Under the pieces are notes generated by a model, which searched no databases, was not told the origin of the DNA, and was given only the letters and a program-made list of their open reading frames with translations. This document shows, in pieces, positions 19,074 to 24,806 of a stretch of 64,000 nucleotides of DNA. Source of the stretch: Streptococcus viridans (GTDB lineage: Bacteria; Bacillota; Bacilli; Lactobacillales; Streptococcaceae); contig NZ_LR134266.1 of NCBI RefSeq assembly GCF_900636365.1, positions 1,005,501 to 1,069,500 of the forward strand, read 5' to 3'. Position 1 is the first letter of the stretch. Every line of letters starts with the position of its first letter. The position numbers and the translations under genes are program-made.

Positions 19074-20450
19074 TTATTTAGCAGTAAGTGCTGCCATAGT
19101 AATGTAGTTGTATGGTTTGTTGAAGTGTGGCAAGAAGAATAGGTCTGTCAATGCCAATTTTTCAATTGTAACATGCTCTTGGATTGCCAATGAGAACATG
19201 TGGATACCCATTGAGATTGCAGCATCACGTGATACCATTTGAGCACCAAGGATTTCACGACTATCTTGATCATAAACGATCTTGATAGCAACTTCATGGT
19301 TATCATGTTTCATAAATTCTGGTTTTTGAAGGTCGTTAAATCCAGTTTCAGTTGCATTGTAGCCTGCAGCTTTTGCTTTTTCAAGTGTCAAACCAGTTGA
19401 AACCATGTGAAGACCATAGATAGAAATACCATTTGATCCTTGCACACCGATTCCTTCAAGTTCATGTCCACAAGCGTTGTACGCACCTACGATACCGGTA
19501 CGAACAGCGTTTGAAGCAAGCGCGATGTAGCTAGTGTCTTTACGAGCGTTGTCATAAACAGTCGCACAGTCACCTACTGCATAAACACCTGGAATTGATG
19601 TTTCTTGTTTCTTGTCAACAAGGAAGGCACCGTTACGGAAGAGTTCAATCTTACCGTCAGCAAGAGCTGTGTTTGGACGGAATCCAACTGCAAGAACAAC
19701 CATATCCACATCAAATGTTTCTTTGTCAGTGATCAAGCGTTCAACTTTACCTTCACCTTCGATAGCTTTAACAGTTTGTCCAAGAGCCAAACGGATGTTG
19801 TGGTCTTCCAAGTTTTTAGCCATCATTTGTGTGAAGTCTTTGTCATAGTATCCGTTCAATACTGTGTCAACGATATCAACAAGGACAACTTCTTTTCCAA
19901 GACGTTCGAAAGCTTCAGCAAGCTCAACACCAATGTAACCACCACCAACTACAGCGATACGTTCAAGGTGTTTGCTCTTATCAGCAAGTTTGTTGATAAC
20001 TTCTTCAGCATTTTGGTATAACTTAACAAATTGTACGTTTTCAAGAGTTGCTTTGAACTCACGGTTCCCTTTGACAATTTCAACACCTTCAATTGGAGGC
20101 AAAATTGGTGTAGAACCAGTAGCAAAGATCAACTTATCGTATGATTCTTTGTGTTCTTTTCCTTCAACTTCTGCAGTAACAACTTTGTTATCGTAGTCGA
20201 TTGAAAGTACAGGTGAGTTCATGTAAATTTTCGCACCTTTAGCTTCAAGCGTTTCTTTATCAGAGTAGAACAAGCCTTCAGGACCGTCGATTTGCTCACC
20301 GATCCAAAGAGCCATTCCACATCCAAGGAATGAAATATTTGAGTTTTGGTCAAATACAACGATTTCATTTTCGTTTCCAAATTTATCCAACATTGTGTTG
20401 ATACATGCAGTTCCAGCGTGGTTAGCACCCACAACTACGATTTTACTCAT
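19074..20450 (-). CDS. nox: Water-forming NADH oxidase
   Basis: The 458-residue flavoprotein reduces O2 to water with NADH, regenerating NAD+ and detoxifying oxygen. The FAD GxGxxG-like motif [11 protein letters not shown] is at the N-terminus and the redox-active cysteine is Cys44 in [10 protein letters not shown]. The NAD motif [15 protein letters not shown] and the second FAD motif [12 protein letters not shown] follow. The ATG at 20448-20450 matches the family start and is preceded by AAAGGTAGG; a longer frame to 20516 would cover the promoter. A Rex-like site lies upstream (20533-20550). Confidence 0.96.
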
Positions 20451-20486
20451 AGAAAAAATCCTACCTTTAATTTTATTTACCATACA

Positions 20487-20516
20487 ATTATAACATGAAA
20501 ATGATATCGTTTCCAA
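20487..20516 (-). promoter_or_regulatory. Promoter of nox
   Basis: Minus strand TTGGAA, 18-base spacer, TATAAT, about 36 bases before the nox ATG. Confidence 0.65.
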
Positions 20517-20532
20517 ATTTTTTGCTTACAAT

Positions 20533-20550
20533 TTGTGATATTATTTTCAA
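20533..20550. promoter_or_regulatory. Rex-like operator between nox and apbE
   Basis: TTGTGATATTATTTTCAA. The left half TTGTGA is a perfect Rex half-site; the right half TTTCAA matches 4 of 6 positions of TCACAA. It sits 17 bases upstream of the nox -35 box and near the divergent apbE promoter. Rex senses NADH/NAD+, which would suit both genes, but one half is weak. Confidence 0.35.
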
Positions 20551-20585: not shown

Positions 20586-20665
20586 TTTGCTTGGGGGGAT
20601 TGTGAAATGGCTTTCTTTTTGATAAACTTGAAGTAGGTGAATATTGGAAAGGTGGTTTACTATTT

Positions 20666-21589
20666 GTGGAACTAACTAGTCGATCTGAACGCCTAATGGG
20701 CTCCACCATAACCGTTTCGATTTCTCATCAACAAGCTGACCAAATACTGGCCGATTGCTTTAGTCTCCTGCGATCCTATGAGCATCGCTTTAGTGCCAAT
20801 GACTCTTCTTCTGAATTGATGGAGGTCAATCAAAAAGCTGGCATTGAACCCGTAAAGGTTCATCCAGATCTTTTTTCACTGATTGCTCTAGGAACTAGCC
20901 ATAGTCAGGCGCAAGGAAGTCATTTAAACATTGCGATTGGTCCACTTGTCCAAACCTGGAGAATTGGTTTTTCAGATGCTAGGAAGCCTGATCAAGTAGA
21001 AATTGAACAAGCCCTAACAGTCATTGACCCTCATCAGATTTGCTTAGATCCGAATCAACAAACTGTTTTTCTCAAAAGAAAAGGGATGAAAATTGATCTA
21101 GGTGCTTTAGCTAAGGGGTTTAGTGCTGATTTACTAGCTAACTATCTCAGGAGTCAGGGGATTGAACAGGCTTTAATTGATTTGGGAGGCAATATCCTTA
21201 CCCTTGGTCAAAACCCTGTCAGTCATCGCCCTTGGAGAATTGGGATTCAAGATCCTCATCTTCCAAGAGGAGAACATTTACTGGTTCTATCTGTAACAGA
21301 TAAGTCCGTCGTGACGTCAGGTACCTATGTTCGACACCTCGAAGTTGACGGCCAGTCCTTCCATCATATTTTTGATCCCCAAACCGGCTATCCTGTCGAA
21401 ACGGAACTGGCAAGTCTCACGATTATTTCTGATCGATCAGTTGACGGAGAGATTTGGACCACCCGCTTGTTCGGTGAAGAACCGAGCAACATTTTAAACA
21501 TTGTTGAAACCTTACCTGGCATGGATGCTATTCTAGTCTATCAGTCAGGTCGCCTCGCCTATACCAGTGGGCTACATGATTATTTATAA
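20666..21589 (+). CDS. apbE: FAD:protein FMN transferase, cytosolic ApbE
   Basis: The 307-residue enzyme links FMN to a Ser/Thr of target proteins through a phosphoester, using FAD and Mg2+. Family motifs are DLGALAKGFSADLL (about 144-157), LIDLGGNI, and SFHHIFDPQTGYPVET. The start is GTG after GGAAAGGTGG; an ATG at residue 11 is an alternative. Unlike most ApbE proteins it has no signal peptide or lipobox, so it should act in the cytosol. It is followed after 24 bases by two FMN reductases, the second of which carries two target motifs, making it the obvious substrate. Confidence 0.93.
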   Translation: MELTSRSERLMGSTITVSISHQQADQILADCFSLLRSYEHRFSANDSSSELMEVNQKAGIEPVKVHPDLFSLIALGTSHSQAQGSHLNIAIGPLVQTWRIGFSDARKPDQVEIEQALTVIDPHQICLDPNQQTVFLKRKGMKIDLGALAKGFSADLLANYLRSQGIEQALIDLGGNILTLGQNPVSHRPWRIGIQDPHLPRGEHLLVLSVTDKSVVTSGTYVRHLEVDGQSFHHIFDPQTGYPVETELASLTIISDRSVDGEIWTTRLFGEEPSNILNIVETLPGMDAILVYQSGRLAYTSGLHDYL

Positions 21590-21613: not shown

Positions 21614-22219
21614 ATGACAAAACTTATTGCGATCGTTGGAACAAACTCCAAACGTTCAACAAACCGCCAACTACTTCAATACATGCAAAAGCATTTTGCT
21701 GACAAGGCAGAGATTGAGTTAGTTGAGATCAAAGATATCCCTGTCTTCAACAAACCAGCCAACAAACAAGTTCCTGAAGCTATCTTAGAGATTGCTGCGA
21801 AAATTGAGGAAGCTGATGGCGTCATCATTGGCACACCAGAATATGATCACTCCATCCCTGCTGTATTGATGAGTGCACTTGCTTGGCTATCTTATGGGAT
21901 CTACCCATTATTAAGCAAACCAGTGATGATTACTGGTGCTTCTTATGGTACACTTGGTTCATCTCGTGCCCAATTGCAACTGCGTCAAATCTTGAACTCA
22001 CCAGAAATTAAAGCCACTGTCCTTCCAGACGAATTCTTGCTTTCTCACTCTCTTCAAGCATTTGATCAAAATGGTGACTTAGTAGATCTTGACGTCATCA
22101 AGAAATTGGATGCTATCTTTGATGACTTCCGTATCTTTGTTAAAGTTACTGAAAAATTGCGCAACGCTCAAGAATTACTTCGTAAAGATGCCGAAGACTT
22201 CGACTGGGAAAACTTGTAA
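21614..22219 (+). CDS. NADPH-dependent FMN reductase family protein
   Basis: A 201-residue flavodoxin-fold FMN_red protein. The FMN phosphate loop is GTNSKRSTNRQL (9-20) and the flavin-contact motif is GTPEYDHSIPAVLMSALAWL (about 74-93), followed by GASYGTLGSSRAQLQLR. It has no ApbE target motif. It is paired 18 bases upstream of a longer paralogue, and the two may form a heteromer or a reductase/acceptor couple. Predicted reaction: NAD(P)H-driven reduction of flavin or a flavin-linked acceptor; the final acceptor is unknown. Confidence 0.9.
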   Translation: MTKLIAIVGTNSKRSTNRQLLQYMQKHFADKAEIELVEIKDIPVFNKPANKQVPEAILEIAAKIEEADGVIIGTPEYDHSIPAVLMSALAWLSYGIYPLLSKPVMITGASYGTLGSSRAQLQLRQILNSPEIKATVLPDEFLLSHSLQAFDQNGDLVDLDVIKKLDAIFDDFRIFVKVTEKLRNAQELLRKDAEDFDWENL

Positions 22220-22237
22220 GATAGGAGACATACTAGC

Positions 22238-23473
22238 ATGAAATTTGTAGGACTTGTAGGATCTAACTACGACCAATCATATAACCGCAAACTTTTGGAA
22301 TTCATCCGTCGTCATTTTAAGATCAAATTTGAATTAGAAGTTCTTGAAATCGACGAAGTTCCAATGTTCAACCAAGATGAAAAATGGGACGAAAGCTTCC
22401 AATTGCGTCTCCTTAACAATAAAATCACTCGTGCCGATGGTGTGATTATTGCAACTCCTGAACACAACCACACCATTTCAGCAGGACTAAAATCTGTTTT
22501 AGAATGGCTTTCCTATGAAGTGCATCCTTTTGAAAGCAAACCTGTCATGATTGTAGGTGCTTCTTACTACGACCAAGGGACTTCTCGTGCTCAAGTTCAC
22601 CTTCGTAAAATACTTGATGCTCCAGGTGTCAATGCCTATACCCTTCCAGGGAACGAATTCCTTCTAGGAAAAGCGAAAGAAGCTTTTGATGCAGATGGCA
22701 ACATCACGAACGAAGGAACAGTTAAATTCCTTGAAACTTGTTTAGATAACTTTGTGAAATACGTAGGAGTCGTTTCTAAATTGAAAAAACCAAAACCAAT
22801 TGAACCAGAAGATTTGGATTGCGGAAAACCAATCGCTACTACCATCACTGAGGTTGACCCAGATGATCCAGATTGGGTAGAAAAAGTTGCAGAAATTACA
22901 GGTGCTGTATCAGGCGATACTTATGTCAAATTGGACCACGGTATCCTGACTGTTAATCAAATCGATATGTTCTTAAAAGCTATGCCTTTCGAATTGACAT
23001 ACGCAGATGACAACAACCAGTTCCTCTACTACAACAATGCCCACCAAGATCCAGATACCATGTTTGCGAAACGCGTGCCACCTCAATCAGGTAGCCGGAT
23101 GTCAACCGTTCACGGTTCTCTTCCACCAGCACGTATGAAAAACGTTGAATGGGTCATTGGTACTCTTCGCAACGGAAACCAAGAATATGTTCGTACCATT
23201 GTTCCAGGCTCTCCTGAAGGCGTGATCAATACTCACAACTATCAAGCTATGTACTATCCAGATGGTTCATATGCTGGTATCAACGAAATCGTCTTTAACT
23301 TCCAGCCATGGTTGGACTGGTACCTTCAAACAACTGGTCAACGCTTAGTAGGCGGTAGCGGACCATTCGCTCCTGCTGGCGGCCATGGGGATGCAGACGC
23401 TACTTCAGGTGCTTCAGATGCTGGAGGACACGGTGACGCAGCTGCTGATGCTACATCTGGTGCAAGCAACTAA
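22238..23473 (+). CDS. FMN reductase-PAS fusion with two C-terminal flavinylation motifs
   Basis: A 411-residue protein with three parts. Residues 1-180 are an FMN_red flavodoxin fold (GTSRAQVHLRK and TPEHNHTISAGLKSVLEWL visible). Residues 237-365 resemble the PAS-like C-terminal domain of DUF438 proteins (LTVNQIDMFLKAMPFELTYAD, then the SRMSTVHGSLPP region). Residues 372-411 are a flexible Gly/His/Asp tail with a duplicated unit. It contains DATSGAS at 387-393 and again at 404-410, each matching the ApbE target consensus Dxx(S/T)GA(T/S), with predicted flavin on Ser393 and Ser410. The two copies differ synonymously at five of seven codons. There is no signal peptide, so the reaction should be cytosolic, like the neighbouring ApbE. 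The electron route is inferred. Confidence 0.8.
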   Translation: MKFVGLVGSNYDQSYNRKLLEFIRRHFKIKFELEVLEIDEVPMFNQDEKWDESFQLRLLNNKITRADGVIIATPEHNHTISAGLKSVLEWLSYEVHPFESKPVMIVGASYYDQGTSRAQVHLRKILDAPGVNAYTLPGNEFLLGKAKEAFDADGNITNEGTVKFLETCLDNFVKYVGVVSKLKKPKPIEPEDLDCGKPIATTITEVDPDDPDWVEKVAEITGAVSGDTYVKLDHGILTVNQIDMFLKAMPFELTYADDNNQFLYYNNAHQDPDTMFAKRVPPQSGSRMSTVHGSLPPARMKNVEWVIGTLRNGNQEYVRTIVPGSPEGVINTHNYQAMYYPDGSYAGINEIVFNFQPWLDWYLQTTGQRLVGGSGPFAPAGGHGDADATSGASDAGGHGDAAADATSGASN

Positions 23474-23474
23474 T

Positions 23475-23505
23475 AAAAAAATGAAGCTTTATGCTTCATT
23501 TTTTT
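23475..23505. terminator. Bidirectional terminator between convergent operons
   Basis: AAAAAAATGAAGC-loop-GCTTCATTTTTTT. It closes the plus-strand flavin operon and, on the minus strand, overlaps the stop of the TlpA-like gene. Confidence 0.9.
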
Positions 23506-24076
23506 ATTTCAACTCTTTGATAATCTTCTTAGCATCTTCGTTTGAAATTACCCCTAATTGAACATGTCCAATCTTTCCTTGGCTATCGATAAAGACTTCC
23601 GTAGGAATGGAACGAACTTGATAATTCATAAAGGCAGATCCATCTGGATTGTACAAAACAGGCACTGATTGATAGTCTTGTTGGGCAAACCATTCAACGA
23701 ATTCTTCTTCAGTTTTTTCACCCTGCATCCCTGGTGCCATAACTGTGAGAATCTCAAAGTCACGGTCCTTTTCTTCGACCAGTTTATTCAGTTCAGGCAT
23801 ACTTTGTCGGCAAGGACCACACCAAGTCGCCCAGAATTTCAAGTAAACCTTTTTGCCTCTATAGTCTGAAAGTTTAACCGTGTTCCCCTTCATATCCTTT
23901 AGCTCGAAGTCACTAGCTTCTTTTCCTACTAAAGGATGTTTACTTGTGCTAGTATTGGTCATTGATTGATTATTCATGGATTGATTATTCATGCCGCTTT
24001 CGGACTGATTCATAGAGCAAGCAGTCAGGATAGACAGAGAAAGAAGCGAAAAACTGGCGTATTTAATAACTTTCAT
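23504..24076 (-). CDS. TlpA-like thioredoxin-fold lipoprotein
   Basis: A 190-residue extracellular lipoprotein. The signal peptide ends in a lipobox LTA-C (Cys20). A linker with the duplicated unit MNNQS follows, then a thioredoxin fold with active site WATWCGPCRQSMPEL and cis-Pro segment VRSIPTEVF. It is predicted to reduce disulfides or sulfenic acids of surface proteins, drawing electrons from the CcdA encoded 22 bases upstream. This matches the CcdA/Etrx pairs described in pneumococcus. No methionine sulfoxide reductase gene is adjacent, so the client is not indicated. Confidence 0.9.
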   Translation of the reverse strand: MKVIKYASFSLLSLSILTACSMNQSESGMNNQSMNNQSMTNTSTSKHPLVGKEASDFELKDMKGNTVKLSDYRGKKVYLKFWATWCGPCRQSMPELNKLVEEKDRDFEILTVMAPGMQGEKTEEEFVEWFAQQDYQSVPVLYNPDGSAFMNYQVRSIPTEVFIDSQGKIGHVQLGVISNEDAKKIIKELK

Positions 24077-24098
24077 AATGAGTAAACCTCCATTTAAT

Positions 24099-24806
24099 TT
24101 ATGAAAAGATAGCAGACAAGCTATTCAATTGTCCCAAGAGTAACAAAATCCCCATAATGATGATGATCAAGCCACCAATTTTCTTCAGTAACAAGAGATG
24201 GGGTTTTAGACGATTAAAGTATGGGAGAACAATCCCAGACGCTAAGGCCAAAAGTAAAAACGGAATAGCCATCCCTAGTGTATAGATAAAGAGATAGAGA
24301 GCACCCATGAGGGCATCTTGACCATTGGACGCTGCTAAGGCAAGGACAGAGCCTAGAACCGGACCGATACATGGCGTCCAGCCAAAGCTAAAACCAAGCC
24401 CAAGCAAAAAAGCTGAAAGTAATTCATTCTTGTGTTTGTTGGCTCCAAAATCCATTGTCTTTTGCTTTTCTAAGAAGTTAAAGTGAAAGACTTCCATCTG
24501 ATGAAGACCAAGGATAATGATCAGCGCTCCCATCAAGTATCGGAACCAGTTGGTGTACATAATTTGCCCAAGTAGACCTGCCCCAAAACCAATAATGAGG
24601 AAAATGACAGAAATCCCTGCGATAAAACACAAGGTCTTTACAAGACCATGCCAGCGAATCTTCTTCCCAAAAATCTGAATGGATTTTTCCTGATCACTTC
24701 CTAACAAGACACCGATATAAACTGGAAGCAAAGGAAATACACAGGGAGAGAAAAAGGAGAGAATCCCTGCCAGAAAGACTGTGAAGGAGAAAACGATTTG
24801 ATTCAT
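24099..24806 (-). CDS. ccdA: CcdA-type thiol-disulfide electron transporter
   Basis: A 235-residue membrane protein with six helices. The redox cysteines of the family are in the first helix (SPCVFPLLP) and in the fourth (GWTPCIGPVLGSVLA), each with the conserved CxxP/PC context. It moves electrons from cytosolic thioredoxin to an outside acceptor, here presumably the TlpA-like lipoprotein encoded just downstream. A promoter-like TATACT lies 30 bases upstream with a weak -35. Confidence 0.93.
   Translation of the reverse strand: MNQIVFSFTVFLAGILSFFSPCVFPLLPVYIGVLLGSDQEKSIQIFGKKIRWHGLVKTLCFIAGISVIFLIIGFGAGLLGQIMYTNWFRYLMGALIIILGLHQMEVFHFNFLEKQKTMDFGANKHKNELLSAFLLGLGFSFGWTPCIGPVLGSVLALAASNGQDALMGALYLFIYTLGMAIPFLLLALASGIVLPYFNRLKPHLLLLKKIGGLIIIIMGILLLLGQLNSLSAIFS

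Follow-up and report, generated by a model that had tools for sequence, protein, structure and literature searches.

The locus and the question it raises

The window analyzed here, a 64,000-nucleotide stretch of a complete, 2.0-Mb Streptococcus genome, raises the question of why an apparently cytosolic FMN reductase should carry two flavinylation motifs at its C-terminus. The reductase gene is the last of a trio on the + strand, in the order apbE (20666-21589), which encodes an FAD:protein FMN transferase of 307 aa with a GTG start as listed; a gene for a 201-aa FMN_red protein without a flavinylation motif (21614-22219; Pfam E 4e-35), the tandem partner of the tailed reductase; and the gene for the tailed reductase itself (22238-23473), a 411-aa FMN_red-PAS_10-tail protein as defined by its open reading frame, Pfam, and an AlphaFold2 model. 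The best named match of the latter is a protein of Streptococcus rubneri, with 100% identity across the 411 residues. The ApbE domain (Pfam E 5e-77) is full-length and above the cut-off (259 bits versus 25.6; model positions 1-266 of 266). By eye, the ApbE protein has no obvious signal peptide or lipobox, and the N-terminus of the 411-aa protein is not signal-peptide-like, in agreement with the first-pass annotation. That annotation had also placed an apbE gene next to the reductase; the two indeed belong to the same cluster, with one FMN_red gene between them.

This arrangement is seen widely. An FMN_red gene of ~180-315 aa lies immediately 5' of the tailed reductase gene in nearly all loci examined, and the synteny apbE, FMN_red, FMN_red-PAS-tail, with apbE 5' of the paired FMN_red genes, is present in most loci with enough flank. 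In two Streptococcus genomes (five loci), the FMN_red-PAS gene is apparently split or broken, and in one of them its two halves lie far apart on the chromosome. In the window, the trio is followed by a convergent pair on the - strand (23504-24806), named by eye as a TlpA-like thioredoxin lipoprotein (23504-24076) and a CcdA-like membrane protein (24099-24806).

It had been proposed that the protein is simply a reductase with a flexible tail. The tail is indeed disordered, but a PAS_10 domain lying between the two had been overlooked. Both domains are confident in the AlphaFold2 model, which has a mean pLDDT of 86.9. The FMN_red domain (PF03358; residues 1-147, + strand 22238-22678; Pfam E 1.7e-32) matches the fold of ChrR (3svl; Foldseek TM-score 0.89 on the target) and thus that of the ChrR-type NAD(P)H flavin reductases. 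Residues S14, N16, T73, E75, H76, G107, and S109 are invariant in 60 homologues, and since they lie in stretches expected to hold non-covalent FMN, the reductase probably keeps this flavin besides any tethered ones. The PAS_10 domain (PF13596; residues 242-355, + strand 22961-23302; Pfam E 5.1e-21, 75.8 bits versus a curated cut-off of 22.1) matches 2qkp, the PAS domain of SMU_1151c, with a TM-score of 0.86-0.88 on the target. Fold and family are thus common to this domain and the DUF438-type PAS_10 proteins; however, the latter have other domain partners and no tail with flavinylation motifs (no match in a sample of the phylum). To our knowledge, PAS_10 has no known flavin binding. Apart from FMN_red, PAS_10, and a sub-threshold Flavodoxin_2 match, Pfam finds nothing in the 411-aa protein, including no FAD_binding_2. 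The first-pass annotation had also noted the lack of an FMN_bind domain (PF04205), and none is matched by Pfam either in the protein or in its own genome; the idea that such a domain might be concealed in the tail or lie at another place in the genome was consequently rejected.

The upstream region contains a predicted sigma-70 promoter for the operon (TTGTGA, 17 bp, TAAACT; + strand 20600-20628), recognized by eye and by the phylogenetic footprint TTGTGAAAACGNTNTCTTTTTGATATACTA, which is found 5' of apbE in several Streptococcus loci. In several of these loci, a conserved cre-like (CcpA) sequence can be seen by eye between the -35 and -10 elements of the apbE promoter, and another is seen in the promoter region of the divergent nox gene (20450-20520); in the window, both are imperfect. 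A Rex site 5' of apbE was considered and rejected, as the sole match, at 20533, has three mismatches, and the window contains four such matches versus 1.1 expected. The divergent neighbor, nox (19074-20450, - strand), encodes an NADH oxidase-like flavoprotein. Of 80 Streptococcus loci, 74 have a nox homologue no more than ~4 kb away, and at one locus from another family a more distant homologue (33% identity) is found 3' of the trio; this neighborhood hints at a link to NADH and oxygen balance. Elsewhere, a regulator of ~285-295 aa with an MNIERFIEARK-like start lies directly 5' of the trio (nine loci). On an Enterococcus faecium plasmid (locus L304), the regulator 5' of the trio (1543-2400) is an HTH-TPR protein by Pfam, and on a Lactococcus lactis plasmid, a Crp/Fnr-family regulator is found upstream.

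Flavinylation motifs in the tail

The Gly/His/Asp-rich tail (residues 371-411, + strand 23348-23470; pLDDT <50 for residues 373-411) contains DATSGAS twice, at residues 387-393 (23396-23416) and 404-410 (23447-23467), with FMN predicted on Ser393 and Ser410. A recount bears out exactly what had been reported for these motifs: they are 17 residues apart and differ at five of seven codons (GAC GCT ACT TCA GGT GCT TCA in motif 1; GAT GCT ACA TCT GGT GCA AGC in motif 2). It had been argued from these codons that the peptide is conserved rather than recently copied. Conservation is supported, since the motif is kept across homologues, but copying did probably take part at an earlier time: GGHGD is common to both linkers of the tail, which in this lineage therefore resembles an old duplication of 17 residues in which the motif has been kept while the linker drifted. 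Across many genera, the linkers vary in length and sequence and the motifs are kept.

The comparison of homologues that had been proposed as a check gave a clear answer. The tails of 60 homologues (after residue 370) contain 97 strict motifs, versus a mean of 0.32 and a maximum of 2 when each tail is shuffled individually and the motifs are recounted. A chance origin is ruled out by these shuffles together with the genome-wide motif search described below. Among the 68 Streptococcus tails that could be parsed, the number of strict motifs is exactly two in 64 and three in 3; the other 12 of the 80 tails, in which the joined match started in the upstream gene, are outside these counts. There is also a variant form of the motif. 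DxxSSAS or DxxTSAS replaces DxxSGAS in 50 of 149 relaxed motifs; the homologues concerned are numerous, and the E. faecium plasmid copy is one of them. In some relatives, the tail has solely DxxSSAS, with Ser for Gly, or is more degenerate, and the sites are putative. Eight of the loci collected, L304 among them, have tails of the DxxSSAS/DxxTSAS kind. A search of 38 pairs for covariation between ApbE positions and the G or S form gave no column that cleanly separated the groups.

The genome itself points to a single target for its ApbE. Profile matching of the whole genome found one ApbE. The motif, back-translated and run as a DNA pattern, gave 19 matches in the genome, and in open reading frames of at least 80 aa, D..[ST]GA[ST] is encoded solely by the two tail motifs. 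Because there is one ApbE, no FMN_bind domain, and no other open reading frame of that size with the motif, the 411-aa protein is the sole apparent ApbE target to which the motif points. Furthermore, among 398 Lactobacillales genomes, ApbE is present in all 197 that have the PAS-tail module versus 157 of 201 without it (Fisher p 9e-15, with relatedness ignored).

Relation to known flavinylated proteins

The first-pass annotation had set the tail motifs of a cytosolic reductase apart from the usual FMN_bind setting. This core claim is not undescribed, as tail flavinylation of FMN_red proteins was published in 2024. Huang et al. (mSystems, PMC11334425) reported FMN_red proteins, mainly from Firmicutes, in which a C-terminal extension carries one to two flavinylation motifs and whose genes are adjacent to apbE. 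Two such Lactococcus proteins were shown by co-expression and UV gels to be flavinylated, and flavinylation was lost on alanine substitution; in addition, AlphaFold-multimer models placed the L. lactis sites near conserved FMN sites (PMC11334425). The 411-aa protein has the same features, namely an FMN_red domain, an unstructured C-terminal extension with two DATSGAS motifs, and a co-located, same-strand apbE two genes upstream. Given the conserved motifs, the single, apparently cytosolic ApbE, and the flavinylation of the Lactococcus proteins, it is likely that the protein is soluble, is driven by NAD(P)H, and carries more than one flavin. The earlier proposal of a two-flavin NAD(P)H shuttle is thus supported in its multi-flavin part, but the number two is not fixed, as relatives have one to nine motif-like sites.

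The PAS domain is not mentioned in the main text of Huang et al. 2024 (PMC11334425), and stand-alone PAS-tail carriers and plasmid spread, both covered here, are not mentioned there either. The PAS_10 partner, the stand-alone and multi-site relatives, and the plasmid spread thus go beyond that account. A search covering part of the literature on ApbE or flavinylation together with PAS gave no account of a PAS-tail module, and a search for the pneumococcal orthologues, by locus tag, gave nothing useful. Multi-flavinylated FMN_bind proteins are a second point of comparison. These carry several covalent FMNs per polypeptide, the number varying between relatives, but they are mostly predicted to be extracytosolic and use folded FMN_bind domains (PMC8238504, PMC10339131), whereas here the predicted sites are short peptides on an apparently cytosolic protein.

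A third known system is the CrdAB type, the cinnamate reductase of Vibrio ruber, in which an NADH-dependent FMN_red-FMN_bind-FAD_binding_2 reductase is accompanied by a small FMN_red partner. Both systems have a small and a large FMN_red protein in tandem and are soluble, and in the CrdAB type an ApbE motif follows the reductase and precedes the last domain. There, however, the motif is part of a folded FMN_bind domain, after which comes a catalytic FAD domain, whereas here it lies in a disordered tail after the PAS domain. Proteins of 804-826 aa with the FMN_red-FMN_bind-FAD_binding_2 architecture are also present among the loci collected (L041, 510-2924; L042, 6801-9281; L043, 2690-5104; L044, 2728-5178). 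Their domains were scanned in L041 and L042; the set is apparently the same throughout, with a folded FMN_bind, and each gene adjoins a small FMN_red gene, in what appears to be a sister system.

Distribution and architectures of the PAS-tail module

When whole genomes were searched with profiles, 197 of 398 from the Lactobacillales, representing 48 of 80 genera, proved to have the PAS-tail module. In the phylum sample (399 genomes), strong full-length matches occur in Streptococcus alone. Strong matches outside the Lactobacillales were considered as further modules and rejected, as they cover the PAS part only, in frames mostly of ~400-500 aa; they are consistent with DUF438-type proteins.

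Within the family, the number of motifs and their context vary considerably. The common number of motifs in FMN_red-PAS-tail relatives is two or three, with a range of one to four, apart from one (locus L137) that has seven. In five loci, among them L036 (4006-4740), stand-alone PAS-tail proteins carry one to three motifs. One lipoprotein (L141) combines FMN_bind and PAS and ends in a motif-like site, and in an 882-aa protein (L128) three PAS domains come after FMN_red, together with nine motif-like sites. The stand-alone, lipoprotein, and three-PAS forms indicate that the motifs can outnumber the reductase sites or dispense with them. An unusual extracytosolic relative, a predicted lipoprotein with FMN_bind, PAS_10, and three motif-like sites, was also observed (L281, 8648-9850).

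Conversely, FMN_red-tail proteins without PAS are found in three loci, and there is no PAS gene near these or in a fourth (L295), which indicates that PAS is not indispensable. In a Lactococcus-like genus, the components are split: an FMN_red-tail gene, apbE, and a separate, motif-less PAS gene lie side by side (three loci). The genus is presumed to be Lactococcus, since a protein from one of its genomes shares 99% identity with the counterpart on the L. lactis plasmid pGdh442, and both short PAS-less and PAS-containing forms are present in Lactococcus or Lactococcus-like genomes. Since PAS and tail form one protein in one lineage and are encoded by neighboring genes in another, the PAS domain and the predicted flavinylated tail look like working partners. 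The motif-less PAS protein of the split form could equally be a sensor.

The trio is also carried by plasmids, in L. lactis, Lacticaseibacillus paracasei, and 95 Enterococcus records. In 94 of the latter, the plasmid trio has at least 99% identity, and most of those listed come from human isolates. In the one E. faecium plasmid examined (L304), IS1216 copies flank a stretch containing the trio and an HTH regulator. The fact that the trio travels with at most a regulator argues against a dedicated partner protein.

Possible functions of the tethered flavins

Given all of these observations, a model can be put forward in which the trio would be a self-contained cytosolic redox device. ApbE would link FMN to Ser393 and Ser410 through phosphoester bonds, by homology to the flavinylated Lactococcus proteins. 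Hydride from NAD(P)H would enter the non-covalent FMN of the two FMN_red domains, and the 201- and 411-aa proteins, judging from gene order, would probably form a heterodimer. The tail-tethered FMNs could then swing, picking up electrons at the reductase site and delivering them at or near PAS_10, which might be a dock for the reduced flavin or for its acceptor. The number of tethered flavins would be tunable by added motifs. As the cassette moves between species without a dedicated acceptor gene, the final acceptor would most likely be small and diffusible, such as oxygen, a quinone, or free flavin. We give an even chance to this model of an NAD(P)H-fed carrier in the cytosol, in which tethered FMNs would move back and forth between the FMN of the reductase and a site close to PAS.

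The main rival holds that the tail does no more than fix FMN covalently in the site that the reductase already has for it, preventing loss of the cofactor, with the second motif a spare or intended for the dimer partner, a view suggested for Lactococcus by Huang et al. (PMC11334425). Both the demonstrated flavinylation and the modeled position of the L. lactis sites (PMC11334425) fit it well, as do the FMN_red-tail proteins without PAS; moreover, the 201-aa partner is motif-less, so two motifs could serve both sites of a heterodimer. Locking thus explains the simple forms. It does not explain PAS-tail proteins that have no FMN_red domain and yet carry one to three motifs, or the three-PAS protein with its nine motif-like sites, and the FMN_bind lipoprotein that ends in PAS and a motif-like site is also difficult to accommodate. 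On balance, it is considered rather unlikely.

PAS domains are classic sensors, and the tethered flavins might signal the state of NAD(P)H or oxygen to this domain, which would in turn alter partner binding or gene expression. The HTH-like regulator directly 5' of apbE in several genera (HTH-TPR on the E. faecium plasmid) and the Crp/Fnr-family regulator on the L. lactis plasmid would suit such a role. However, the 411-aa protein has no output domain, a regulator is missing from many loci including the window, and the lipoprotein form lies outside the cytosol, all of which make a redox sensor improbable. Another proposal, modeled on the FMN_red-FMN_bind-FAD_binding_2 reductases, is that of a reductase specific for a substrate such as a quinone or an unsaturated acid, which PAS_10 would bind and to which the covalent FMN would donate directly. 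Other Lactobacillales loci, including Streptococcus, do pair a small FMN_red with the 804-826 aa proteins, in which a catalytic domain occupies the place held here by PAS. Nevertheless, the conserved residues of PAS_10 in these proteins form no recognized active site, and we know of no catalytic role for PAS_10, so this proposal appears very unlikely.

Implications for fermentative bacteria

Taken together, these results have led to a broader but tentative hypothesis, to which we give somewhat less than an even chance. It holds that PAS_10 and a multi-motif tail together define a class of ApbE substrates that is new, namely a modular flavin carrier that occurs alone, repeated, fused to an NAD(P)H reductase, on a surface lipoprotein, and in a three-gene cassette spread by plasmids; in this carrier, the PAS domain would serve a number of flavins held by a short tail. 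The literature treats ApbE flavinylation mainly as a means to retain flavins on extracytosolic proteins. Here, a cytosolic ApbE apparently serves a single cytosolic target, within a three-gene unit that is kept across much of the Lactobacillales and carried on plasmids in lactococci, lactobacilli, and E. faecium. If the hypothesis is correct, fermentative bacteria would possess a soluble, tunable multi-flavin electron carrier in the cytosol, and if the tethered flavins work with the PAS domain, PAS_10 would gain a role as a redox carrier. The predicted number of flavins, from one to ~9, would then offer a natural series in which the purpose of tethering flavins in the cytosol could be tested.
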